Assembly: GCF_000214595.1 (NCBI RefSeq)
Contig: NZ_AFIG01000001.1
Location: 744,001-808,000 of the forward strand
Direction of reading: 5' to 3'
DNA: 64,000 nucleotides
DNA from: Methylophaga thalassica MP
Lineage (GTDB): Bacteria > Pseudomonadota > Gammaproteobacteria > Nitrosococcales > Methylophagaceae
The notes under the pieces are model-generated. The model saw only the letters and a program-made list of their open reading frames with translations, made no database searches and was not told where the DNA came from. Position 1 is the first letter of the stretch; each line of letters opens with the position of its first letter. Below are positions 20,514 to 33,901 of this stretch, in pieces. The translations under genes and the position numbers were made by a program.

Positions 20514-20792
20514 ATGGCTGACTCGATTTCCGAAATAAACTGTGCTGAATCGGTCACGATCGCACAGGTTGCAGATATTTATGCGCAGCTGTTAATGGCG
20601 ATGGCTGAAGGCCAGGCTATTCAAATTAATTTAGGTCAAATTGAACGTATCGATACAGCGGTCATTCAACTTTTCTATGCGTTCTATCGTGATGCTCAAC
20701 TTCAGGGGCTGGTTGTCATTTGGTCAAATCCCAGTCAACTTTTTTGTGATGCTGTCGATAGATTGGGTATCAAAGCATTTTACGCACAATAA
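20514..20792 (+). CDS. STAS-domain protein heading the che operon
   Basis: A 92-residue single-domain protein with the STAS/anti-anti-sigma fold pattern: an internal IQINLGQIERIDTAVIQLF stretch where phosphorylatable family members have a DSSG-type loop, and a C-terminal amphipathic helix with LFCDAVDRLGI. The loop here reads IDTA, with Thr in the position often taken by Ser. A small STAS protein next to cheY and cheA is a recurrent arrangement in flagellar chemotaxis clusters of gammaproteobacteria. Its partner and role are not known to me. AGAAGGAA precedes ATG 20514. Confidence 0.8.
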   Translation: MADSISEINCAESVTIAQVADIYAQLLMAMAEGQAIQINLGQIERIDTAVIQLFYAFYRDAQLQGLVVIWSNPSQLFCDAVDRLGIKAFYAQ

Positions 20793-20830: not shown

Positions 20831-21193
20831 ATGGCTAATATTCTCGCAGTCGATGATTCTGCCTCAATGCGGCAAATGGTCACCTTCACTTTGCAAGGTG
20901 CCGGACATAAAGTCACCGTAGCAGATGATGGTAAACAGGCCCTGGATATAGCTCAAAAACAGTCTTTTGATTTGGTCATTACTGACGTCAATATGCCGGT
21001 AATGGATGGCTTGACTTTAACCCGTCAATTACGCCAATTATCCACGTTTAAGTTTATTCCTATACTCGTACTAACAACTGAAGCCGGACCAGAAAAGAAA
21101 CAAGAGGGTCGTGCTGCTGGTGCAACAGGCTGGCTGATTAAACCGTTTAATCCTGAACAGCTGTTAGCGACGGTGAAAAAAGTCTTGGGTTAA
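20831..21193 (+). CDS. cheY: Chemotaxis response regulator CheY
   Basis: A stand-alone 120-residue receiver domain. The acidic pair is in AVDDSAS, the phosphoacceptor in LVITDVNMPVMDG, the Thr in LTTEA and the Lys in LIKPFN. Phosphorylated by CheA, it would bind the switch proteins FliM/FliN. AAGAAGGAG lies upstream of ATG 20831, and cheA follows after four bases. No cheZ phosphatase gene accompanies it. Confidence 0.93.
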   Translation: MANILAVDDSASMRQMVTFTLQGAGHKVTVADDGKQALDIAQKQSFDLVITDVNMPVMDGLTLTRQLRQLSTFKFIPILVLTTEAGPEKKQEGRAAGATGWLIKPFNPEQLLATVKKVLG

Positions 21194-21197
21194 TCAT

Positions 21198-23354
21198 ATG
21201 AGCATCGACGTCTCCCAGTTTCATAGCATATTCTTCGAAGAAAGCTTCGAAGGTCTCGATATTATGGAAAGTGGCTTGCTTAGCATGTCGCAGGGAGAAA
21301 TCGATGATGATACGGTCAATGGTATCTTTCGTGCCGCACACTCCATCAAAGGAGGGGCTGGCACCTTTGGCTTTAGCAATATTTCTGAGTTTACACATGG
21401 ATTAGAGACGCTCCTTGATCAAATTCGTAATGGCGAACGCGAAGCAACGGATGATGTGATTGAAACATTACTTTCAGCTGTAGATACACTACGTGAAATG
21501 TTAACAGCTGTTCAAGATAGTTCAGAGGTAGATACAGAAAAAGTCAAACAAGTATCAAAGGCACTTGAGCAAATTTTACTAGGTTCAACGTCTGATGATG
21601 TCGACAAGGTAATGGATGAGGTTTCTGATGCGGATGTGAGCGCATCAGAGCCATTAACTCAAACATGGCTGATTAAGTTTAAACCTCTATCTCATATGCT
21701 CCAGACGGGAAATGAACCTATTCGGATGTTCCGTGAATTAGCGGAGTTAGGGGCGTTATCTGTTGAGGTGAATGAGGAGGAGCTACCTCCGTTTACCGAT
21801 CTTGATCCTGAAATCTGTTATTTGAGTTGGCAACTGACTTTATCGGGTGACGTTGATGAAGCAGCAATAAACGAAGTTTTTGAGTGGGTGGATGGCGATT
21901 GTGAGCTGAGTATTGAGCGGCTTGAACAAAATGTGCCTGATATCGAGCCAGCTCTGTCGGCACATGAATCTGAACAGATCGATATCCATGAGCCCATGAT
22001 TCCTCCTAGTTCACTGACGGAGGGTGAAACAGCCGAACCCGAAGCTCCATCGCCAAGTGCAACTGAAGCCCAACTCAAAACATCAGCTGAGATTGATCAT
22101 CTCACACCGAAAAAAAATGAAGTTTCGCCTAAAAAGAAAGCCGTGACTCCGGATGCTTCTATTCGTGTTGGCACAGATAAAGTTGACTCACTGGTTAATC
22201 TTGTCGGTGAGTTAGTGATTACTCAGTCAATGCTGGGACAGATTGGTGAGAATTTTGATATCAACATGCTACCTCAGTTGATTGATGGTCTTGAACAGTT
22301 AGAACGTAATACCCGTGAGCTACAAGAAAGTATCATGCGAATTCGCATGTTGCCCATTAGTTTTGTTTTTAACCGTTTCCCTCGGCTGGTGCACGATATG
22401 ACCAGTAAGTTGGGAAAACAAGTCGAGTTAGTTCTGAGCGGAGAGCAAACTGAACTTGATAAAACAGTGATGGAGAAAATAGGTGATCCTTTGGTTCATC
22501 TGGTGCGTAATTCATTAGATCACGGCTTGGAGACACCCGAAAAACGTCGAGCTGCTAATAAATCTGAAACCGGCACGCTAAAACTTAATGCCTATCATCA
22601 GGGTGGCAATATTGTCATTGAAATAAGTGATGATGGGGCCGGTCTAAACGAAGACAAAATTTTAAATAAAGCGATCGAGAAAGGTTTAGTTGATCCGAAC
22701 GAAACACTCCCCCCAGAAAAAATACACGAACTCATTTTCTTACCAGGATTTTCTACAGCAGACCAAGTCAGCGACTTATCTGGTCGTGGGGTTGGAATGG
22801 ATGTGGTTAGAAAAAATATTAATAGCTTAGGTGGTGCTGTTGAGGTCAAATCGGAATCTGGTATTGGTTCTACATTTACTATTCGATTGCCATTAACCTT
22901 AGCCATTATGGATGGTCAAATTATCCAAGTTGCCGATCAACGGTACATTATTCCATTGATTTCGATTATTGAGTCAGTTGAAGTCGAAGCGGGTAGAGTC
23001 AACAGAGTAACGGGTAAAGGCGAGCTCTATAAAATACGTGATGAGTATGTGCCAATAATCAGGCTGACGAATGTTTTCAATGTAGAGGGTGGCATAGAGG
23101 ATTTGCAGGCTGGCTTACTGGTGATTGTTGACTGTGAAGATTATAAGGTGGGGTTATTTGTCGACGAGTTGTTGGCACAGCAACAAGTGGTTATCAAAAG
23201 CCTGGAGACCAATTTCCGCAAAGTTAAAGGTATCGCTGGTGCAACGATTCTAGGCGATGGTGCCGTCGCTTTGATTCTGGATATTCCAGGATTAATGGCA
23301 ATGCATAGAGAACCTTCTCAGGTCAGAAAGAACTCATCAGGAAAGGTGGCTTGA
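21198..23354 (+). CDS. cheA: Chemotaxis histidine kinase CheA
   Basis: A 718-residue soluble kinase. The P1 HPt domain has the phosphorylated His in IFRAAHSIKGGAGTFGF. A regulatory segment follows (about residues 150-245, TWLIKFKPLSHMLQTGNEP), then a Pro/Glu-rich linker and P3 dimerisation helices (SLVNLVGELVITQSMLGQI). The P4 ATPase has HLVRNSLDHG, the G1-like DDGAGL and the G2 GRGVGMDVV. P5 is a CheW-like domain. Gene order and overlap with cheY and cheW show one operon. Confidence 0.96.
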   Translation: MSIDVSQFHSIFFEESFEGLDIMESGLLSMSQGEIDDDTVNGIFRAAHSIKGGAGTFGFSNISEFTHGLETLLDQIRNGEREATDDVIETLLSAVDTLREMLTAVQDSSEVDTEKVKQVSKALEQILLGSTSDDVDKVMDEVSDADVSASEPLTQTWLIKFKPLSHMLQTGNEPIRMFRELAELGALSVEVNEEELPPFTDLDPEICYLSWQLTLSGDVDEAAINEVFEWVDGDCELSIERLEQNVPDIEPALSAHESEQIDIHEPMIPPSSLTEGETAEPEAPSPSATEAQLKTSAEIDHLTPKKNEVSPKKKAVTPDASIRVGTDKVDSLVNLVGELVITQSMLGQIGENFDINMLPQLIDGLEQLERNTRELQESIMRIRMLPISFVFNRFPRLVHDMTSKLGKQVELVLSGEQTELDKTVMEKIGDPLVHLVRNSLDHGLETPEKRRAANKSETGTLKLNAYHQGGNIVIEISDDGAGLNEDKILNKAIEKGLVDPNETLPPEKIHELIFLPGFSTADQVSDLSGRGVGMDVVRKNINSLGGAVEVKSESGIGSTFTIRLPLTLAIMDGQIIQVADQRYIIPLISIIESVEVEAGRVNRVTGKGELYKIRDEYVPIIRLTNVFNVEGGIEDLQAGLLVIVDCEDYKVGLFVDELLAQQQVVIKSLETNFRKVKGIAGATILGDGAVALILDIPGLMAMHREPSQVRKNSSGKVA

Positions 23355-23357
23355 GCG

Positions 23358-23864
23358 ATGTCTGAAATCACTACAGAAAACGAAATACTCGATATTCTTG
23401 ATGTTGTCGATAGTGTCGATGATGGTGCGCAGCAATACCTGACATTTGAACTTGCAGATGAACACTATGGCGTCGAAATTCTGCGGGTTCAGGAAATTAA
23501 AGGCTGGGATAATGTGACGCCGATTCCAAATACGCCTGCTCATGTTTGCGGAGTGTTGAATCTTCGTGGCGTGATTGTGCCAATTGTTGATCTGAGATTG
23601 TTATTCCAAATGCCTTTTAATCCATACACAAAAACAACAGTGGTTGTCGTTTTGAAAGTAGAAGGTATCACTGATCGTGTTGTCGGTATTGTGGTTGATG
23701 CGGTATCAGAGGCGCAGAACGTGGACCCTCAAATGATTTCAAACGCACCTGACTTAGGCACTGTCGTCGACACCAGTTTTATAAAAGGCATCACCAGTAA
23801 CGATGAATATATGCTGATGTTATTGGATATCGATAAATTACTCAGTGTAGAGCAGGTAGGCTGA
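23358..23864 (+). CDS. cheW: Chemotaxis coupling protein CheW
   Basis: CheW joins receptors to CheA. The 168-residue protein has the CheW fold signature: YLTFELADEHYGVEILRVQEI, then IPNTPAHVCGVLNLRGVIVPIVDLR. A 25-residue acidic N-terminal extension precedes it. It starts three bases after cheA and overlaps the parA start by one base. Confidence 0.95.
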   Translation: MSEITTENEILDILDVVDSVDDGAQQYLTFELADEHYGVEILRVQEIKGWDNVTPIPNTPAHVCGVLNLRGVIVPIVDLRLLFQMPFNPYTKTTVVVVLKVEGITDRVVGIVVDAVSEAQNVDPQMISNAPDLGTVVDTSFIKGITSNDEYMLMLLDIDKLLSVEQVG

Positions 23865-24646
23865 TGACTACTGGCCATGTTCGTGTAATTGCCATTATGA
23901 ACCAAAAAGGCGGGGTGGGGAAAACCACTACCACCGTTAATCTTGGGCACGCACTTGCTTTGCAAGGCAAACAAGTGGCGTTGATCGATATGGATCCTCA
24001 GGGACAAGTGGCGACAAGCCTGGGCCTGGATAATCAGCAACTAGGAATTGATGTTGTTTTACTTGAGGGTGAAGCGATTGATGTCGTCAAGCACCAGGCA
24101 CGAGATAAGTTGGATCTAGTACCAGCGGGACCGCGCTTGAATGAGTTTGAACATATCAACGAGGGTGGTGTTGAACGTGGTCACCGACTACGAAAAGCAA
24201 TCGAAGAGTCCTCGTTATCGGCTTATGATTTTGTCTTAATAGATTGCCCACCCTCTTCAGGGTTACTTGGTGTCAATGCCATGTTTGCTTCCAGCGAACT
24301 TATCGTTCCAGTGTCAGGGGATTACCTGTCACTACAAGGCTTATCTCGTATGATGCAAATTTTAAAACGGTCAGAGGAAATTTCAGGACATCGCATTCGA
24401 CTTTGGCTGGTTTCGACCCGTATGCAATTGCGTCGGAATTTGACTGCTGAGGTCCGCAAGCGAGTGCTTAAATATTTCCCAGGCAGGGTGTTATTTACCC
24501 CTATTCGTGAAAACGTTGCACTAGCAGAGTGTCCCAGTTTTGGTAAAACAATTTTTGATTATCGGAAAAAAAGTGCTGGTGCGGAGGATTACTTCACTCT
24601 GGCCAGCGATGTATTAAACAGGAGAGCGGCTGATGGCCAAGAGTAA
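23864..24646 (+). CDS. ParA-family ATPase embedded in the che operon
   Basis: A 260-residue Soj/ParA-like ATPase with the deviant Walker [15 protein letters not shown], switch I-like DMDPQGQ and Walker [10 protein letters not shown]. There is no adjacent ParB. In Vibrio (ParC), Rhodobacter (PpfA) and Pseudomonas, orphan ParA proteins encoded in che clusters position chemotaxis arrays; the same role is likely here. It overlaps cheW by one base and the globin-PAS receptor gene by 14 bases, so all three should be made together. Confidence 0.88.
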
Positions 24647-27401
24647 AAACGTCATGGGTAACGACCCGCTCGCCTGGTTAACGGTTGATAGTAAAACGTC
24701 GACTCAAAGTGTGCATGCTGATGAAACTGAACAGGCGGCTGAGGTTGATTCATCTACTGAGACTGAACTTCCTGAAAAAACACCTATTGAGTTAGTGGAG
24801 GAGAGTTTTACTTTCATCGCCGCTAAAGGTGAACTATTGGTTGCTGATTTTTATAGTGAACTTTTTGCATCACAACCACAGTTACAGCGCTTGTTTAGTG
24901 GTGTGTCACAACAGGGGCAACAGAAAAAATTATTAGCAGCGATAGTACTGTTGGTACAAAACCTGCGTCATCCAGCTTTACTGGACAGTTATTTGACAGA
25001 ATTAGGTAAACGCCATGTTTCATATGGCGTGAAAGAGGCGGATTACCAAGCCGTTAAAAATTGCCTGCTCACTGTGCTGGAAAAATATGCTGTATCTGCT
25101 TGGTCACAAGCTGTTGCTTCAGCCTGGAATGAAACACTGGATAGCGTTATTAAAAAAATGACGACGGACGAAGAGTCCGTGGAGGAGAGAGACATGGCTG
25201 TTAATCAAAAAGCTGATAAAGAAATCCTAAATAGAGCCAATGCGCTTGATAATGCGGTAACGGCTGTGATGATGATTGATAGAGATTTCACTATTACGTA
25301 CGCCAACCAATCAACACTAAACATGTTGGGTGAGCATGAAGAAACCCTAAAATCGGTCTATCCTGGATTCTCTGTCAAAGGTCTGGTTGGCAGCAACATT
25401 GATCTTTTTCATAAAAATCCAGCTCATCAAAGGCAGATGCTTAGTAATCCTGATAATCTGCCACATCAGGCTGACATTAAAGTGGGACCACTGGCTTTTA
25501 GACTGAATGTCACGGCAATGATGGATGAAGAAGGCAACTACATTGGTAATATGCTCGAATGGCATAACGTCACTGCAGAGAAGCTGCGAAATGCTGATAT
25601 TCATGGCCAGTTTGATGCCTTGAATAAAGTGATGGGCGTCATCAGTTTTGAATTGGACGGTACCATCATCGATGTCAATGATAATTTTCTCAAAGTAGTG
25701 GGCTATAGTCGAGAGGATGTCATAGGGAAGCATCATCGAATGTTCGTTTCGCCTGAATCTGCTCAAAGCGTCGAATATGCTGAGTTCTGGGCAAAATTAA
25801 ACCGTGGCGAATTTGATAGTGGTGAATATAAACGGGTTGCCAGAGGTGGCAAGGATATTTGGCTACAAGCTAGTTACAATCCTATTCTGGATATTAATGG
25901 CAAACCTTTTAAAGTCGTTAAATTTGCAACGGAAATTACAGAAACAAAATTGCAGCGCGCCAATTTTGAAGGTCAAATTTCTGCCATTAACAAAGCAATG
26001 GGTGTAATCAGTTTCGATATGGACGGCACCATTCGCAGCGTGAATGATAATTTCCTCAATGCTGTCGGTTATCAGCGTGAGGAGGTTGTGGGTAAACATC
26101 ACCGTATGTTTGCTACACCTGAGTTAGCGAAAAGTCCTGAGTATGCAGAGTTTTGGGCAAAACTCAATCGTGGAGAGTTTGACGCCGGGGAATATCAACG
26201 TGTAGGAAAAGATGGAAAAGATATCTGGTTACAAGCCAGCTATAACCCCATTTTTGATCTAAATGGTAAGCCTTATAAAGTGGTTAAATACGCTTCAGAT
26301 ATTACTGATCAAAAACACTTGCAGTTTGCCGTTCAACAAGCGTTATCAGCGACATCCACCGTGATGAATGCATTGGCGCAAGGTGACCTCACCAAGTTAA
26401 TGGATGGTGAGTTTGAGGGCGAGTTTGCGCTACTTCAGCAAGCGGTGAATGGTTCAATTACAAAAATTTCATCCATTGTGCAGGACATCATCGAAGCGTC
26501 GATCAGCATTTCTTCTGCAGCGAGTGAAATTTCACAAGGTAATACTGATTTAAGTCAGCGAACAGAGGAACAAGCTTCCTCACTGCAAGAAACCGCAGCG
26601 AGTATGGAAGAGCTCACCAGTACCGTCAGACAAAACTCCGATAATGCTCGTCAGGCTAACCAGCTTGCCGTGGATGCAAGGAGTAAGGCTGAAAAAGGGG
26701 GAAGCGTCATTCAAGAGGCCATTCAAGCGATGGCGGCAATCAGCACTTCCAGTAAGCGCGTTGCAGATATTATTGGTGTTATTGATGAAATCGCCTTTCA
26801 AACTAACTTGCTCGCATTAAATGCCGCTGTAGAAGCGGCTCGAGCAGGTGAACAAGGCCGTGGATTTGCCGTGGTTGCGTCAGAAGTACGTAACTTGGCA
26901 CAGCGTTCAGCCGCTGCGGCAAAAGAAATTAAAGAGTTGATTAATGACAGTGGTGAAAAAGTCAGGGAAGGTTCTGTTTTAGTCAATGAATCTGGCAAAA
27001 CCTTAGAAGAAATTGTCGAGGGAGCGAAAAAGGTTGGGGACATTATTTCTGAAATCGCCGCTGCCGGTATAGAGCAAACATCAGGTATCGAGCAAGTTAA
27101 TCAGGCAGTGACTCAGATGGATGAAATGACGCAGCAAAATGCAGCGCTAGTAGAGCAAGCGGCGGCGGCGAGTGAATCCTTAGATGAACAAGGGAAGCAT
27201 CTGGAAGAAATGATGATGTTTTTCAAAACAGATTCTGATGTGGCATCCCCCAAACAACGTGCTGTATTAGCTGATGCCGCGGCACCAAGAAAAGAAGTAA
27301 AAGCCATCAAAGCAAGGCCAGAGTCGATGGCGACAGCAAAAACAGCAAGTCGTCAGGTCATGTCAAATCATCAAGAAAGTGATGAGTGGGAAGAGTTTTA
27401 A
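24633..27401 (+). CDS. Soluble globin-PAS-PAS-PAS methyl-accepting chemoreceptor
   Basis: A 922-residue cytoplasmic receptor with no membrane spans. Residues about 50-180 form a globin resembling flavohaemoglobin/Vitreoscilla haemoglobin: Tyr74 (ADFYSELF, B10 position), Gln97 (E7 position) and His128 ([10 protein letters not shown], proximal F8). Residues about 200-324 are a first PAS; 325-446 and 447-568 are two near-identical PAS domains. Then comes the receptor signalling domain, with the hairpin tip [31 protein letters not shown]. The C-terminus is EWEEF, resembling the xWxxF tether of CheR/CheB. It overlaps parA and precedes cheR. Likely senses oxygen, NO or redox state; ligand not proven. 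Confidence 0.9.
25605..26336 (+). repeat. Tandem duplication of a 366-base PAS-encoding unit
   Basis: Two direct 122-codon units (about 25605-25970 and 25971-26336) encode PAS domains sharing [21 protein letters not shown] and [12 protein letters not shown]. Identity is high in protein and partly eroded in DNA at third positions, which suggests an old in-frame duplication rather than a recent one. Confidence 0.85.
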
Positions 27402-27434: not shown

Positions 27435-28271
27435 ATGGATAGAACTGCGCGGGAATTTGAGTTCTCGGACAGGCATTTTTCTAAAATAAGTGCTTTCGTA
27501 ACCGCGCACACCGGAATTTTATTGCCACCGGCAAAAAAAGACATGGTGTATAGCCGGTTATCGAAACATGTTCGGAAATTGTTTCAGGGAAGCTTTGACA
27601 CGTTTTGCGATGCTATCGAAAATGGTGATGATGAAATAAAAGAGCTATTAATCAATGCCATTACAACCAATCTGACAGCTTTTTTTCGGGAAAAGCATCA
27701 TTTTGATTATTTAAAACAATATGTTTTTCCAGAGCTAATGCTCAAAAATAAAACGACTAAAAGAATACGTATCTGGTCTGCAGGATGTTCGACTGGAGAA
27801 GAGCCTTACAGTTTAGCTATATGCTTACATGAGTTTTTCAATGACAAAAAAGACTGGGATGTAAAAGTTCTGGCAACCGACTTAGATGCCAATGTTCTAG
27901 AGCAAGCTGCGTCGGGTATCTATGCCATTGAACGTCTCACCCAGTTCTCAGAGAATGAAAAAAAATCTTGGTTCACCCGAGGCAAAGTGAATACTGACTT
28001 AGTGAAGGTCAAGAGTTTCTTACAGAAATATATTGTTTTTAAAAGATTAAACCTGTTACACACCTTCCCAATGCGTGGGCCATTTGATGTGATATTTTGT
28101 CGAAATGTCATTATTTATTTTGACAAAGCCACTCAAAGAGATTTATTCCATCGATTTGCTGAAAAGATACTGCCCGGTGGTTATATGTTTATAGGGCACT
28201 CAGAAACGCTATTTAACATTAGTGAACAGTTCGTTTCTGTTGGAAACACAATATACAGACGACAGTCATGA
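27435..28271 (+). CDS. cheR: Chemotaxis protein methyltransferase CheR
   Basis: CheR methylates receptor glutamates using S-adenosylmethionine. The 278-residue protein has an N-terminal helical domain, the SAM motif IRIWSAGCSTGEEPYSLAI, LATDLDANVL and the FDVIFCRNVIIYFD segment. The beta-subdomain that contacts receptor tails (about residues 175-195) is about one residue shorter than in E. coli CheR and lacks its GxG loop. It is 33 bases after the globin receptor and overlaps cheD by four bases. Confidence 0.95.
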   Translation: MDRTAREFEFSDRHFSKISAFVTAHTGILLPPAKKDMVYSRLSKHVRKLFQGSFDTFCDAIENGDDEIKELLINAITTNLTAFFREKHHFDYLKQYVFPELMLKNKTTKRIRIWSAGCSTGEEPYSLAICLHEFFNDKKDWDVKVLATDLDANVLEQAASGIYAIERLTQFSENEKKSWFTRGKVNTDLVKVKSFLQKYIVFKRLNLLHTFPMRGPFDVIFCRNVIIYFDKATQRDLFHRFAEKILPGGYMFIGHSETLFNISEQFVSVGNTIYRRQS

Positions 28272-28906
28272 TGGCTTTACTTCCTGTTCTACCAGATGCA
28301 ATAAAGGGGTTTGAAGACGTTAATCGTTACTGGGATAGCTACGCTCAAGCCTGGGTTGCAAAAATTCTACCTGGACAACTCTATGTGAGTTGTAGTGATG
28401 ATGAGGTGATTTCAACAACCTTGGGGTCTTGCGTTGCGGCTTGTATTCGTGATCGAATAAAGGGTATTGGTGGCGTAAATCACTTTATGCTGCCATGGAC
28501 AGAAAATGCGCCAAGTGAAACATGGAAAGGCATGGCAACACGTTATGGCAGTTTTGCCATGGAGTCTTTGATAAATGAGATTTTAAAGGCTGGTGGCGAA
28601 CGCTGTAACTTAGAGATGAAGGTTTGTGGTGGGGCTCGCATCATAAACGGAATATCGAATGATATTGGACGTAAAAATAGTGACTTTATTCTTAGCTTCG
28701 CTCAAACCGAGGGCATCCCTCTGATTGCTTATGATCTTGGAGACATTCATCCTCGAAAACTGATGTATTACCCCAGCACCGGACAGATGTATGTCAAACG
28801 TATTCAACAACTTCACAATGATACTGTTTACCAGCGGGAGTCTCAGTATCATGAACAATTAAAAGCCGCGCCCCAGAGTGGTGGCGTAGAGTTATTCGAC
28901 AGGTAG
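28268..28906 (+). CDS. cheD: Chemoreceptor glutamine deamidase CheD
   Basis: CheD converts receptor Gln to Glu and in some species stimulates CheC. The 212-residue protein has the catalytic Cys in STTLGSCVAACI and the His in GGVNHFMLP, followed by the conserved GGARI region. An N-terminal extension of about 45 residues precedes the core. No cheC gene is present in the window. It overlaps the cheR stop by four bases. Confidence 0.93.
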   Translation: MMALLPVLPDAIKGFEDVNRYWDSYAQAWVAKILPGQLYVSCSDDEVISTTLGSCVAACIRDRIKGIGGVNHFMLPWTENAPSETWKGMATRYGSFAMESLINEILKAGGERCNLEMKVCGGARIINGISNDIGRKNSDFILSFAQTEGIPLIAYDLGDIHPRKLMYYPSTGQMYVKRIQQLHNDTVYQRESQYHEQLKAAPQSGGVELFDR

Positions 28907-28913
28907 GGAAGGA

Positions 28914-29981
28914 ATGAAAAAGATTTCTGTTATTGTCATTGATGATTCGGCTTTAGTCAGAAAGCTACTATCAGAGATCCTCAATTCCGACCCTGAACTG
29001 GAAGTAGTTGCGACAGCTGGAGACCCTTATCAGGCTAGAGAAAAGATTAAACAGTTTAATCCAGATGTGTTAACGCTGGATGTTGAAATGCCAAAAATGG
29101 ATGGGGTGACATTTTTACGTAATCTGATGCGGTTGAGGCCAATGCCTGTAGTTATGGTGTCAACACTGACAGAAAAAGGCGCACAAATCACCCTTGAAGC
29201 TATGGCCTTGGGCGCATTTGATTTTGTAGAAAAACCCAAATTGGATTTATCTCAAACTCTGGCCACCTACTCCGATGAAATTATCAGTAAAGTGAAAGCA
29301 GCGGCGGGCGTTCAACCTGAACAATTGAACCAAAAAGCGATGCTGCAAGTAGATGAGCGTTTAACAGCCGATGCGATTATTGCTAAGAGTTCAAAAAATA
29401 TTCCTTTAAAAACCACTGAAAAAATTGTTGCAATCGGGGCTTCCACTGGCGGAACAGAAGCAATAAAAACAGTCTTGTGTGCATTGCCAGCCAATGCGCC
29501 AGGTATTGTGATTACACAACATATACCTGCGAGCTTCAGTGCGCCTTTTGCGGATCGTGTGAATAAAATGTCGGTGTTGAATGTCAGTCAGGCAGAAGAT
29601 GGTGAGCAAATACTGCCTGGACATGTATATATTGCCCCAGGAGACAAACATCTTTTAGTTGAGCGTAGTGGAGCTCGTTACTATTGTCGATTGAATGATG
29701 GTCCCGCAGTATCACGTCATAAACCCTCAGTTGATGTTCTCTTTCGTTCGGTTGCTCAAAATGTTGGAGCAAATGCGATTGGTATTATGTTGACCGGAAT
29801 GGGCGATGATGGCGCTAGGGGCATGATGGAGATGAAGGATAATGGGGCGAGTAACATTGTTCAGGATGAAAAAAGCAGTGTTGTCTGGGGTATGCCCGGC
29901 GCGGCCTACAAGCTGGGGGCGGCGGAATTGATGCTACCGCTGGATAAAATTGCTCAAGAGATCATGAAACAGGGTCGATAA
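28914..29981 (+). CDS. cheB: Chemotaxis methylesterase/response regulator CheB
   Basis: CheB removes receptor methyl groups after phosphorylation by CheA. The 355-residue protein has an N-terminal receiver (acidic VIDDSA, Asp in LTLDVEMPKMDG) and a C-terminal esterase with the catalytic Ser in IGASTGGTEAI, His in TQHIPASFS and Asp in MLTGMGDDGARGM. AGGGAAGG precedes ATG 28914. Confidence 0.96.
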   Translation: MKKISVIVIDDSALVRKLLSEILNSDPELEVVATAGDPYQAREKIKQFNPDVLTLDVEMPKMDGVTFLRNLMRLRPMPVVMVSTLTEKGAQITLEAMALGAFDFVEKPKLDLSQTLATYSDEIISKVKAAAGVQPEQLNQKAMLQVDERLTADAIIAKSSKNIPLKTTEKIVAIGASTGGTEAIKTVLCALPANAPGIVITQHIPASFSAPFADRVNKMSVLNVSQAEDGEQILPGHVYIAPGDKHLLVERSGARYYCRLNDGPAVSRHKPSVDVLFRSVAQNVGANAIGIMLTGMGDDGARGMMEMKDNGASNIVQDEKSSVVWGMPGAAYKLGAAELMLPLDKIAQEIMKQGR

Positions 29982-30017: not shown

Positions 30018-31193
30018 ATGATGAAAAATCCGTTTGATAAAAAACATATTATTGCTTTCCTATCGTCCATAGGGTTTGTTATAGCCGCCTTATTTTTCGT
30101 GAACTGGCTGGCGGCGTTATTGGTTCTATTTGCCTCTGTTTCAGTATTTTTTTTATTGCGTGAGAATGTGTCAGTTCAAATGCAGACAGCGGTTGCTACG
30201 ACACAGTTATCTTCGGCGGATATCGATGATTTAAAAAATGAAGTAGTCGGTGATATCACGCTTCAGATTGAAAATAAACGTGCAGAGAATGAGCAAATTT
30301 CTGCATTGTTGACAAATGCCGTGCAATCTTTGGGTGATAGTTTCCAAGGTTTGAATGAACAAGCTTCAAATGAGGATGATATGCTTCATAGCTTGGTTGA
30401 TCATAGAGATGGTCAGCAAGGTCTGTCTGAGTTTATAAAAGAAACCGAATCGGTTATGAGCTTTCTTGTGCAAACCTTGCTAAAAAACTCAGATGATAGC
30501 CGTTTGGTAATGGATAAACTGGATGAAATTAATCAGAGAGTTGACGGCGTAATTTCTTTGCTGGACGACGTAAAAGATATCGCATCTCAAACAAACTTAT
30601 TAGCCCTAAATGCGGCGATAGAAGCAGCAAGAGCAGGAGATGCCGGGCGTGGATTTGCTGTTGTTGCTGATGAAGTCAGAAAACTATCACAAAAATCTGA
30701 TGACTTTAGTGATGAAATAAATAAAATCACTATGCAGGTTAAGTCAACCATTGACGAGGCAAGTGATGTCATTTCTGAGTTAGTCTCTGCCGATACAGAT
30801 TTAGTAATGAACAGTAAAGCCAAAGTAGCAGAAATGACCACTACCATGTCAGCACTGAATGATAAAACGCAATCCGTGATATCTGGTACGAGTGAGATTA
30901 GTCATCAGATATCTGGCTTGGTAAACCAGGCGGTAACATCACTTCAGTTTGAAGATATGTGTCATCAGTTAAGCGAGCATATGGATAAGCGTTTAAATAC
31001 AGTGTCAGCACTTATCAATGTAATTAGTGAGATACCCTTGTCATCGGATAGCGATGGTGATCTAGCAGCATGTCAGCAGAAATTTCTAGAGGTCAAAAAA
31101 ACAGTAGCTGAACTCCAGAATAAAATAGATGAAACAAAACACAAATCGGTCTCACAAAAAAGTGTCGATGCCGGAGATATCGAACTCTTCTAA
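30018..31193 (+). CDS. Methyl-accepting chemoreceptor without periplasmic domain
   Basis: A 391-residue receptor. Two hydrophobic segments at about residues 10-28 and 30-48 form a membrane hairpin with essentially no periplasmic loop. A cytoplasmic region lacking a recognisable HAMP leads to a short signalling hairpin with tip [31 protein letters not shown]. The C-terminal part has [18 protein letters not shown], a segment found in some CheA-interacting receptors. With no ligand domain it may respond to membrane or energy state, or act as a signalling partner. It lies 36 bases after cheB. Confidence 0.9.
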
Positions 31194-32707: not shown

Positions 32708-33901
32708 GTGTTCAAACTTGAAAATTTCTCTTTGAGAAAACGCATGTATATCATTGGTGGTCTTGGTGTGGTTGCCTTATTGGGACTACTGCTGCTTGAA
32801 GGCTATATGTATCACTCTGGTATCAAGGAAATAGAAGCACTGTACATTGCAGCAATGTATGTTGTGGTAGCAAGTATTTTAGTGGTGGCTATTGCCCACT
32901 ACATCGGTCGATTCGGTGACAAGCGCGCGATGACCTTAGTTGGTGCAATTCAGAACATCAAAAAAGGTGATTTGACTCATAAAGTAGCTATCTCTGGAAA
33001 AAGTGATTTTAGCTGGATGGCATTTGAACTGGACAGTGCCAGAAAAAATGTTGCTAACCTGGTTCACACTTTAGTTGGTGGTGTAACTCAGCTCACGTCA
33101 GCTAGTCAGAATATGCAAGCTATCAGTAAAGAAACGGTTGATGGCGTATTACGCCAACAGTCAGAAACGACACAGGTGGCGACAGCTATGAATGAAATGA
33201 CCGCTTCAGTTCAAGAAGTGGCTCGAACAGCTTCCAGTGCGGCAGAAGCTGCTCGAAATGCAGATACAGAAGCTAAAGCAGGTAAGCAGGTGGTAATGGA
33301 AACCATGCAGGCCATTGACTCCCTAGCTACCGAAGTTGAAAAAGCGGCAGAACAATTGAGCAGCCTGGAATCAGATATCGGCAATATCGGTGCAATCGTT
33401 GATGTCATTCGCGGCATTACTGAACAAACCAACTTACTTGCACTGAACGCAGCTATTGAAGCTGCCCGTGCAGGTGAACACGGTCGAGGCTTTGCGGTGG
33501 TCGCCGATGAAGTCCGCACGCTGGCTGCCAGAACACAATCATCTACTCATGAAATAGAAGAGATGGTTGAACGCCTGCAGCAAGGTGCTCAGGTTGCGGT
33601 AAAAGTCATGAACGAAGGTCGCGAGCGAGCAAAACACAGTGTTGAAAAAGCATCCAGTGCTGGTGCTGCTTTGGATTCAATCACTGCGATGATTTCCACC
33701 ATGGATGAAATGAGTGCACAAATTTCTAGTGCAGCGAATGAACAGTCTTCAGTGGCTGAAGATATCAACCGTGGTATTGTGAATATCAGTCAGGTTGCTG
33801 AGCATACCGCTGAGGGGGCGAGAGAGTCTTCTATTGCAGTAGAAACCTTGAGTAATCTGGCGACGCAGTTACAAGAAGCGGCAAGTAAATTTAAAGTATA
33901 A
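32708..33901 (+). CDS. Methyl-accepting chemoreceptor with HAMP, minimal periplasmic loop
   Basis: A 397-residue receptor. Two spans (about residues 13-31 and 45-64) flank a loop of about 13 residues, too small for a ligand domain. A HAMP region (about 65-120, with KKGDLTHKV) leads to the signalling hairpin, tip [38 protein letters not shown]. The start is GTG at 32708 with GGGAGAGA upstream; it places [12 protein letters not shown] directly before the first span. No C-terminal pentapeptide tether. It ends just before a strong bidirectional terminator. Confidence 0.92.

Follow-up and report, generated by a model that had tools for sequence, protein, structure and literature searches.

A chemoreceptor with an N-terminal flavohaemoglobin-lineage globin and a predicted haem PAS domain in an F7-type operon of Methylophaga thalassica

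Within a 64,000-nucleotide stretch of the Methylophaga thalassica MP genome (contig NZ_AFIG01000001.1, positions 744,001 to 808,000; hereafter the window, whose numbering is used throughout), we identified a gene at 24633–27401 on the (+) strand encoding a chemoreceptor of 922 amino acids, in which a globin is followed by three PAS domains, a HAMP domain and a methyl-accepting chemotaxis protein (MCP) signalling hairpin. Its sequence and predicted structure make it likely that the protein serves an ancestral-type F7 chemosensory array as its Aer2-like receptor, extended at the far end by a haem globin. The same evidence gives good support to a role in gas sensing, and direct gas sensing, which an initial annotation made from the sequence alone had proposed, is the reading that fits sequence and model best.

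The open reading frame (ORF) is unbroken, and the first frame of the opposite strand is full of stops. On the full-length protein, Pfam placed Globin (PF00042; 59.4 bits, cut-off 22) at residues 71–176, PAS families in up to three stretches, then HAMP_2 at residues 567–612 (26331–26468, (+) strand) and MCPsignal at residues 677–833 (177.7 bits), which confirms that globin, three PAS domains and chemoreceptor tail are joined in one ORF. A chance ORF or frame artefact was ruled out because a 927-amino-acid frame recurs in the same species and two congeners (G419, G402 and G403), and because the globin is under purifying selection, with a ratio of non-synonymous to synonymous substitution rates of ~0.12–0.21 against one congener (L175) by two methods. 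The receptor is also soluble, as had been proposed: no membrane segment was found, the highest Kyte–Doolittle mean over 19 residues being 1.32, and a membrane-anchored receptor was ruled out since its hydrophobic stretches are too short or too weak.

The globin (residues 45–186; 24765–25190, (+) strand) belongs to the flavohaemoglobin lineage, or F type. As an isolated stretch it scored 64.4 bits against Globin, 18.4 against Protoglobin (cut-off 25) and 17.3 against Bac_globin (cut-off 21); because the latter two scores stay below their cut-offs, a globin of HemAT type was ruled out, in agreement with the initial annotation. The nearest solved structures by sequence were Hell’s Gate globin I (3s1i, E 1.4e-13; 3ubc), which we take to come from Methylacidiphilum, thermoglobin (7dih) and flavohaemoglobins. 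An AlphaFold model of residues 45–318 has a globin fold, with block values of the predicted local distance difference test of 75–94 in the globin part and low values only in the linker, and Foldseek aligned the globin model to 3s1i with a target template modelling score of 0.93. In the alignment with 3s1i, Tyr74, Gln96 and His128 fall on the positions that we take to be B10, E7 and F8. Profile search and structure prediction agree on a globin, and the alignment puts His128 at the proximal position. The Tyr and His named in the initial annotation stand, and its distal Gln must be moved from residue 97 to residue 96. Fold and pocket residues together make this an F-family globin. A Pfam scan of the receptor found no flavin adenine dinucleotide/nicotinamide adenine dinucleotide reductase domain behind it, so that it is not a flavohaemoglobin.

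We next consider how widespread such receptors are. Among 369 sampled genomes of the class, 43 carry the globin in a frame of at least 580 amino acids; 38 of these, the window included, were read at length (all except G355, G064, G270, G302 and G257), and the 43 include a globin frame with two stops (G119) and a second such frame that is a CheA fusion (G033). Of 57 genomes from the family, a globin copy of at least 76 bits was present in 42, nothing scored between 76 and 51 bits, and the matches below that gap lie in frames of flavohaemoglobin length. In a phylum-wide sample of 398 genomes there was no match above 65 bits besides that in the genome itself, and most matches lay in short frames; the one that was read (G738, L181) proved to be a globin receptor in a che cluster. 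All surveys were queried with the globin domain, and the counts therefore cover F7 receptors that possess it. In a first set of 41 loci, again including the window, 39 encode a receptor with globin and hairpin, the exceptions being a globin frame broken by stops (L100) and a contig end (L104), and 33 of the 39 adjoin CheA, CheR, CheD and CheB. A second set of 64 loci, drawn from a scan of named genomes, of which 16 repeat the first set and many are cut by contig ends, yielded 51 such receptors, 28 of them adjoining the same four genes. These loci come mostly from uncultivated Gammaproteobacteria (Chromatiales, Thiotrichaceae, Woeseiaceae, Ectothiorhodospiraceae and others), and one assembly each of Myxococcales and Planctomycetaceae also had a che-cluster globin receptor (L151 and L165). 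The family is thus common in some gammaproteobacterial groups, and receptor length and PAS number vary widely among its members.

The haem pocket is close to invariant across this collection. We compared 113 distinct globin copies, comprising 86 from receptors, nine from CheW, five from CheA, two from STAS proteins and 11 others (cut genes and a kinase from L166). Tyr B10 and Gln E7 (residue 96) were present in 113/113 and His F8 in 110/113 (two have Tyr and one is cut off), and Gln97 varied, being found in 55/113. Ten further, hand-picked loci kept the Tyr-Gln-His set in every case, even in two receptors whose PAS haem His is gone and in one that has no PAS domain. In a tree made without single-domain globins and the L166 globin, 111 globins split from two flavohaemoglobins (100/100), with a bootstrap that had not settled.

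The domain behind the globin, PAS1 (residues 193–318; 25209–25586, (+) strand), is of the Aer2 haem-binding type. Its nearest structures by sequence were 6ceq (E 1.9e-27), 4hi4 (3.8e-22) and 3vol (2.2e-21), and the same three Aer2-type haem PAS structures took ranks 1 to 3 in a Foldseek search with the model. His260 and Trp310 stand where Aer2 has its proximal His and distal Trp; by our alignment His260 presumably corresponds to Aer2 His234, and Trp310 to what we take to be Trp283. His234 is reported as the haem His of Aer2 (PMC13401364; here and below, statements credited to a paper refer to the part of its text available to us). Across 202 PAS1-type domains from 76 globin receptors, His260 was conserved in 200 and Trp310 in all 202, and of 14 such domains in the ten further loci, 11 keep both residues, two (L172 and L173) are without the His and one is cut off. 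The haem-pocket residues of the globin are borne out, and the idea of haem plus PAS input is to be refined in that PAS1 is not a generic PAS domain. Since PAS1 is of Aer2 type, two haem sites are predicted in the receptor; from the sequence we infer that globin and PAS1 would each bind b-type haem and O2, with nitric oxide (NO) or CO as possible ligands. PAS2 (residues 330–441; 25620–25955, (+) strand), whose nearest solved relatives are MmoS (3ewk) and Aer (8dik), and its close repeat PAS3 (approximately 25980–26330, (+) strand) differ in type from PAS1. Aer offers an analogy by which PAS2 and PAS3 might bind flavin adenine dinucleotide, but the residues that we take to be flavin contacts in Aer look non-conserved in the PAS2 alignment.

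The signalling end also matches Aer2. The hairpin (approximately 26469–27242, (+) strand) aligned without gaps to Escherichia coli Tsr and Tar and is of the 36-heptad class, to which Aer2-like and F7 Tar-like receptors belong as class 36H (Ortega 2020, PMC7184735). The protein closes on the pentapeptide EWEEF (27384–27398, (+) strand), which fits the CheR-tether motif x-[HFYW]-x2-[HFYW] described for Aer2-like receptors (PMC7184735). A W-x-x-F end was found in 35 of 38 full-length receptors of the first set and 39 of 46 of the second, counts that include loci present in both. Eight of the ten receptors without it lie in stretches without CheA; these are L079, L084, L120, L124, L128, L138, L140 and L167, some of which are one genome in two collections.

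Gene content placed the receptor in an F7 operon. The order is fliI, fliJ, a gene for a small STAS-like protein of anti-sigma-factor-antagonist type (20514–20792; recognized through a homologue in L093 and Pfam STAS_2), cheY (20831–21193; product 37% identical to E. coli CheY), cheA (21198–23354; 43% identity and 513 bits to E. coli CheA), cheW (23358–23864), parA (23864–24646; a ParA-type ATPase with the intact deviant Walker A motif KGGVGKTT), the receptor gene, cheR (27435–28271), cheD (28268–28906), cheB (28914–29981), a second MCP gene (30018–31193), fliK and a third MCP gene; the names given to fliI, fliJ and the STAS-like gene rest on sequence and use as queries rather than on a Pfam scan. 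The STAS-like and second MCP genes are on the (+) strand, and the genes from cheY to cheB all share that strand and are spaced, or overlap, by no more than 36 bases, so the receptor is indeed encoded together with CheA, CheW and CheR. Its reading frame overlaps the 3' end of parA by 14 bases, and translation of the two is therefore probably coupled. The second MCP, with a hydrophobic N-terminal stretch, is McpA-like by its place and its C-terminus, DIELF; all 24 proteins of this type, the window's included and some present in two collections, end in [IV][ED]LF. The McpA-like receptor of F7 clusters has been described as having Val where the tether has an aromatic residue (PMC7184735). The third MCP, 3' of fliK at window positions 32708–33901, has a HAMP match, and L066, L172, L173 and L174 have a homologue in the corresponding position.

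This cluster is of the stage-1 or stage-2 F7 type. It nearly matches the stage-1 order (Ortega 2020, PMC7184735), differing in having one cheW and an added parA, and the last two stage-1 genes were not found after the McpA-like gene of the window. The top NCBIfam match of the receptor was Vibrio Aer2 (NF041847) with 592.7 bits over two stretches, the best being residues 569–922, a score that lies below the equivalog cut-off of 1200 bits. Two more CheA-like genes exist in the genome, one in a 1987-amino-acid frame on contig C3 and one beside CheZ on contig C1, in a cluster ordered CheY-CheZ-CheA-CheB-ParA-CheW. Identity to the E. coli F7 CheA, CheW and CheB is 43, 47 and 52% for the window proteins versus 34, 31 and 35% for those of C1; for CheY the relation is the reverse, with 37% identity to E. 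coli CheY in the window and 67% in C1, and the window CheY has Trp at the position that we take to be Tyr106 of E. coli CheY. We infer that the operon is an ancestral-type F7 (Aer2/Che2-like) system with its own CheY, beside a separate motor cluster. The earlier designation of the locus as the core che operon is therefore abandoned, since the cluster is F7/Che2-like and the CheZ-linked cluster lies elsewhere, and the swimming output assumed with it is unproven.

The globin is not confined to receptors. In five proteins it lies in CheA, between the N-terminal and dimerization parts (L067:4389-6884, the same as L116; L122:1-1827, start cut; L130:5981-8596; L135:9200-11842; L161:6068-8488). It lies inside CheW in two (L071, 9979-10923, and L083/L154, L083:9034-9978), and one to three globins stand behind CheW in four (L131:9425-11251, L143:3-1325, L144:198-1148 and L148:5024-6064). 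The CheW fusions of L071, L083 and L144 adjoin a globin receptor, and the fetched stretches of L131, L143 and L148 hold no other che gene. Two proteins carry the globin ahead of a STAS domain (L093:8624-9571 and L095:10083-11024). Tandem copies also occur: one receptor (L135:13159-18678) has six globins and then four haem PAS domains, and in one other assembly genes at contig ends encode four globins plus four haem PAS domains (L129:1-4602) and three globins (L130:9914-11418). Pfam scans of five of the fusion or tandem proteins agreed, and the three pocket residues are intact in every fused or tandem copy. Since these are draft assemblies, single cases may be errors. In the tree, the CheA globin of L161 pairs with the one in the receptor of the same locus (100/99), as would be expected if it had been transferred inside the operon. 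A Myxococcales protein (L166:7028-10408) combines a protein kinase domain and leucine-rich repeats with a C-terminal globin of the same type.

Reduced forms occur in the genus itself. The stretches of L172 and L173, the part of these genomes that was searched, hold no cheR, cheD or cheB; their receptors have a degenerate hairpin and have lost the PAS haem His, and their ParA has an altered Walker A motif. The receptor of L174, from the same genus, is without PAS. The globins of all three keep Tyr-Gln-His, which suggests that the globin carries the essential signal.

A further feature links the receptor to the ParA-type gene. Its lysine-containing N-terminal segment (24633–24686, (+) strand) includes GNDPLAWL at residues 9–16. 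The motif GxDP[LF][AS]W[ML], located close to the N-terminus of either the receptor or a STAS protein, accompanies a ParA-type gene; in L093 and L095 it is the globin–STAS protein that carries it instead of the receptor. The rule was first seen in the 37 of 41 first-set loci that hold CheA, where the motif was present in 19/20 clusters with ParA and 0/17 without, and any p-value from that set is exploratory. As a held-out test we used the 48 of 64 second-set loci whose globin stretch is not identical to any in the first set: in the 23 of these that hold CheA and CheR the motif was present in 14/14 with ParA and 0/9 without, and in the 25 incomplete loci in 11/11 with and 1/14 without (L118). 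Among the ten hand-picked loci it was found in 5/9 with ParA and 0/1 without, and three of the four ParA proteins lacking a tagged partner have an altered Walker A motif. Over 53 distinct ParA sequences from all sets, the motif accompanies 46/48 with an intact Walker A, 0/3 with an altered one and 2/2 truncated sequences; shared ancestry inflates all of these counts. Proteins that activate ParA/MinD have short, positively charged N-terminal extensions, Rhodobacter TlpT being a suggested one (PMC7993993), which makes a docking and activating role for the tag plausible. We regard the N-terminal segment as a candidate ParA docking tag.

Several observations weigh against parts of this picture. 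Between congeners the globin is 78% identical versus 92% for PAS1, and it thus evolves faster, and two receptors (L102, 8817-11834, and L103, 8925-11942) have Tyr in place of the proximal His. The PAS haem His is gone in L172 and L173 and also in L075, from another genus of the family. Pfam found one HAMP_2 stretch only; this is fewer than the five HAMP domains of Pseudomonas aeruginosa Aer2 and the two of Vibrio cholerae Aer2 (PMC7184735; PMC13401364), although two or more HAMP domains are a feature of those receptors and not a stated definition. Intact ParA occurs without the tag in L089 and L176, and the tag occurs with no ParA visible in L118, whose receptor is near the contig start. The position of the operon between fliJ and fliK suggests some flagellar link, and relatives show it too: among the loci scored, fliI, fliJ or fliK was present in 12 of 39 in the first set and 9 of 51 in the second. 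Finally, the choice of O2 over NO as the ligand is one by analogy only.

The flagellar surroundings could mean that this is, as the initial annotation proposed, an ordinary aerotaxis receptor, in which O2 or NO at the globin steers swimming through the operon’s CheY. Its place between fliHIJ and fliK, the flagellar neighbours in a number of relatives and the complete CheA-CheW-CheR-CheB set would fit such a role. We nonetheless consider it unlikely, as the separate CheY-CheZ-CheA cluster holds a CheY far closer to that of E. coli, the window CheY has its Trp where E. coli CheY presumably has Tyr106, and the function of stage-1 and stage-2 F7 systems is said to be one that 'remains unclear', with a stress response rather than swimming suggested (PMC7184735). 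It is also doubtful, though a little less so, that the globin is an NO sensor or NO dioxygenase module with which the receptor warns of NO rather than sensing O2. Flavohaemoglobins have the same pair of residues, Tyr B10 and Gln E7, which is invariant in the present globins, and on its own the globin matched a single NCBIfam entry, that of the NO-inducible flavohaemoprotein (65.8 bits against a cut-off of 432). However, NO catalysis would need an outside electron donor because the reductase domain is missing, the genome has a separate globin gene of flavohaemoglobin length, and Hell’s Gate globin I, with the same pocket residues, was solved with bound O2.

A more radical alternative would deny the globin a sensory role and make it a dimerization or spacer domain that lengthens the receptor, gas sensing having been lost. 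The variation in receptor length and PAS number and the faster divergence of the globin relative to PAS1 are what such a role might produce, but the pocket is near-invariant in four kinds of host protein and outlasts the PAS haem site in the reduced receptors, which renders this reading highly improbable.

If the receptor is an Aer2-like gas sensor of an F7 array, ligand binding would change the globin, and the signal would pass down an in-line stack of PAS1, PAS2, PAS3 and HAMP to the hairpin tip, which would alter CheA activity towards the F7 CheY and CheB, with EWEEF recruiting CheR so that the receptor can adapt. Having two haem sites would extend the range of oxygen sensed or combine two signals into one readout. 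The GNDPLAWL tag would probably contact the ParA-type ATPase from the overlapping upstream gene, and the array would be positioned or partitioned in this way. Output through the ordinary CheY–CheZ motor pathway, which has its own cluster, is unlikely; contact with the flagellum would still be possible, given the position between fliJ and fliK.

The receptor resembles Aer2 of P. aeruginosa (Aer2/McpB) and V. cholerae in its haem PAS, HAMP, Tsr-like hairpin, CheR tether and lack of a membrane segment, and its operon resembles F7 Aer2 systems in the cheY-A-W-receptor-R-D-B arrangement with an McpA-like gene. It differs from them in its N-terminal F-type globin, single HAMP and two extra PAS domains of another type, and in the ParA-type gene and N-terminal DPLAWL tag. 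With HemAT and other globin-coupled chemoreceptors it shares an N-terminal globin on a soluble receptor; HemAT, however, has a sensor globin of the Protoglobin family, whereas here the globin is of flavohaemoglobin lineage and PAS and HAMP domains intervene before the hairpin. Hell’s Gate globin I and flavohaemoglobin globins share the fold and the Tyr B10, Gln E7 and His F8 residues, but are single-domain or reductase-linked proteins and not receptors. The TlpT/PpfA cluster of Rhodobacter sphaeroides and the ParA/MinD activators offer a parallel for a cytoplasmic receptor with a ParA-type ATPase and a short lysine-bearing N-terminus, and the GxDPL[AS]W[LM] motif does not appear in the account of TlpT and ParA activators in PMC7993993.

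Chemoreceptors combining PAS and globin are already known, as rare proteins: seven were reported in 8,075 complete genomes (Sharma 2018, PMC6194562). Among these seven, Corallococcus coralloides Cc_4972 and the six others are soluble globin, PAS and MCP proteins, with a che cluster and a proposed role as O2 sensors; the globin is described there as Bac_globin (PF01152) and such proteins as very rare, and the likeness drawn here is one of description only (PMC6194562). The view in the initial annotation that globin-coupled chemoreceptors generally occur without PAS repeats cannot be upheld in light of that report and of the frequency of the present family in some groups. The main text of Sharma 2018 does not name Aer2, and its sections 7 and 8 mention no CheA, CheW or STAS fusion (PMC6194562); the main text of Ortega 2020 contains no word beginning with 'globin' (PMC7184735). 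In a literature search outside which most subscription journals lay, and which did not cover the motif itself, Sharma 2018 was the one paper on PAS, globin and MCP receptors to emerge, and we found no account of a globin in CheA, CheW or STAS proteins, of tandem receptor globins or of a ParA tag. What is new is the link to F7, the occurrence of the globin in several components of the pathway and the coupling to ParA, and the finding is a variant of Aer2-like receptors that opens onto a wider family.

Taken further, and tentatively, the ancestral F7 array may be a dedicated multi-haem gas-sensing machine across many Gammaproteobacteria, in which the globin lineage acts as a mobile sensory module (at the receptor tip, in up to six copies, and in CheA, CheW and STAS proteins) so that gas is read at several levels, and in which ParA positions the array through a new docking tag on the receptor or STAS protein. 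The natural signal and output of ancestral F7 arrays, such as Che2/Aer2 of Pseudomonas and Vibrio, are an open question on which this family bears; a receptor that brings an independent second haem site to the array, and retains it in members whose PAS site is degraded, points to gas as the primary F7 signal. CheA and CheW with an internal globin would let a chemosensory array take in gas signals by a new route, and the candidate ParA tag would offer a short peptide handle on array positioning.

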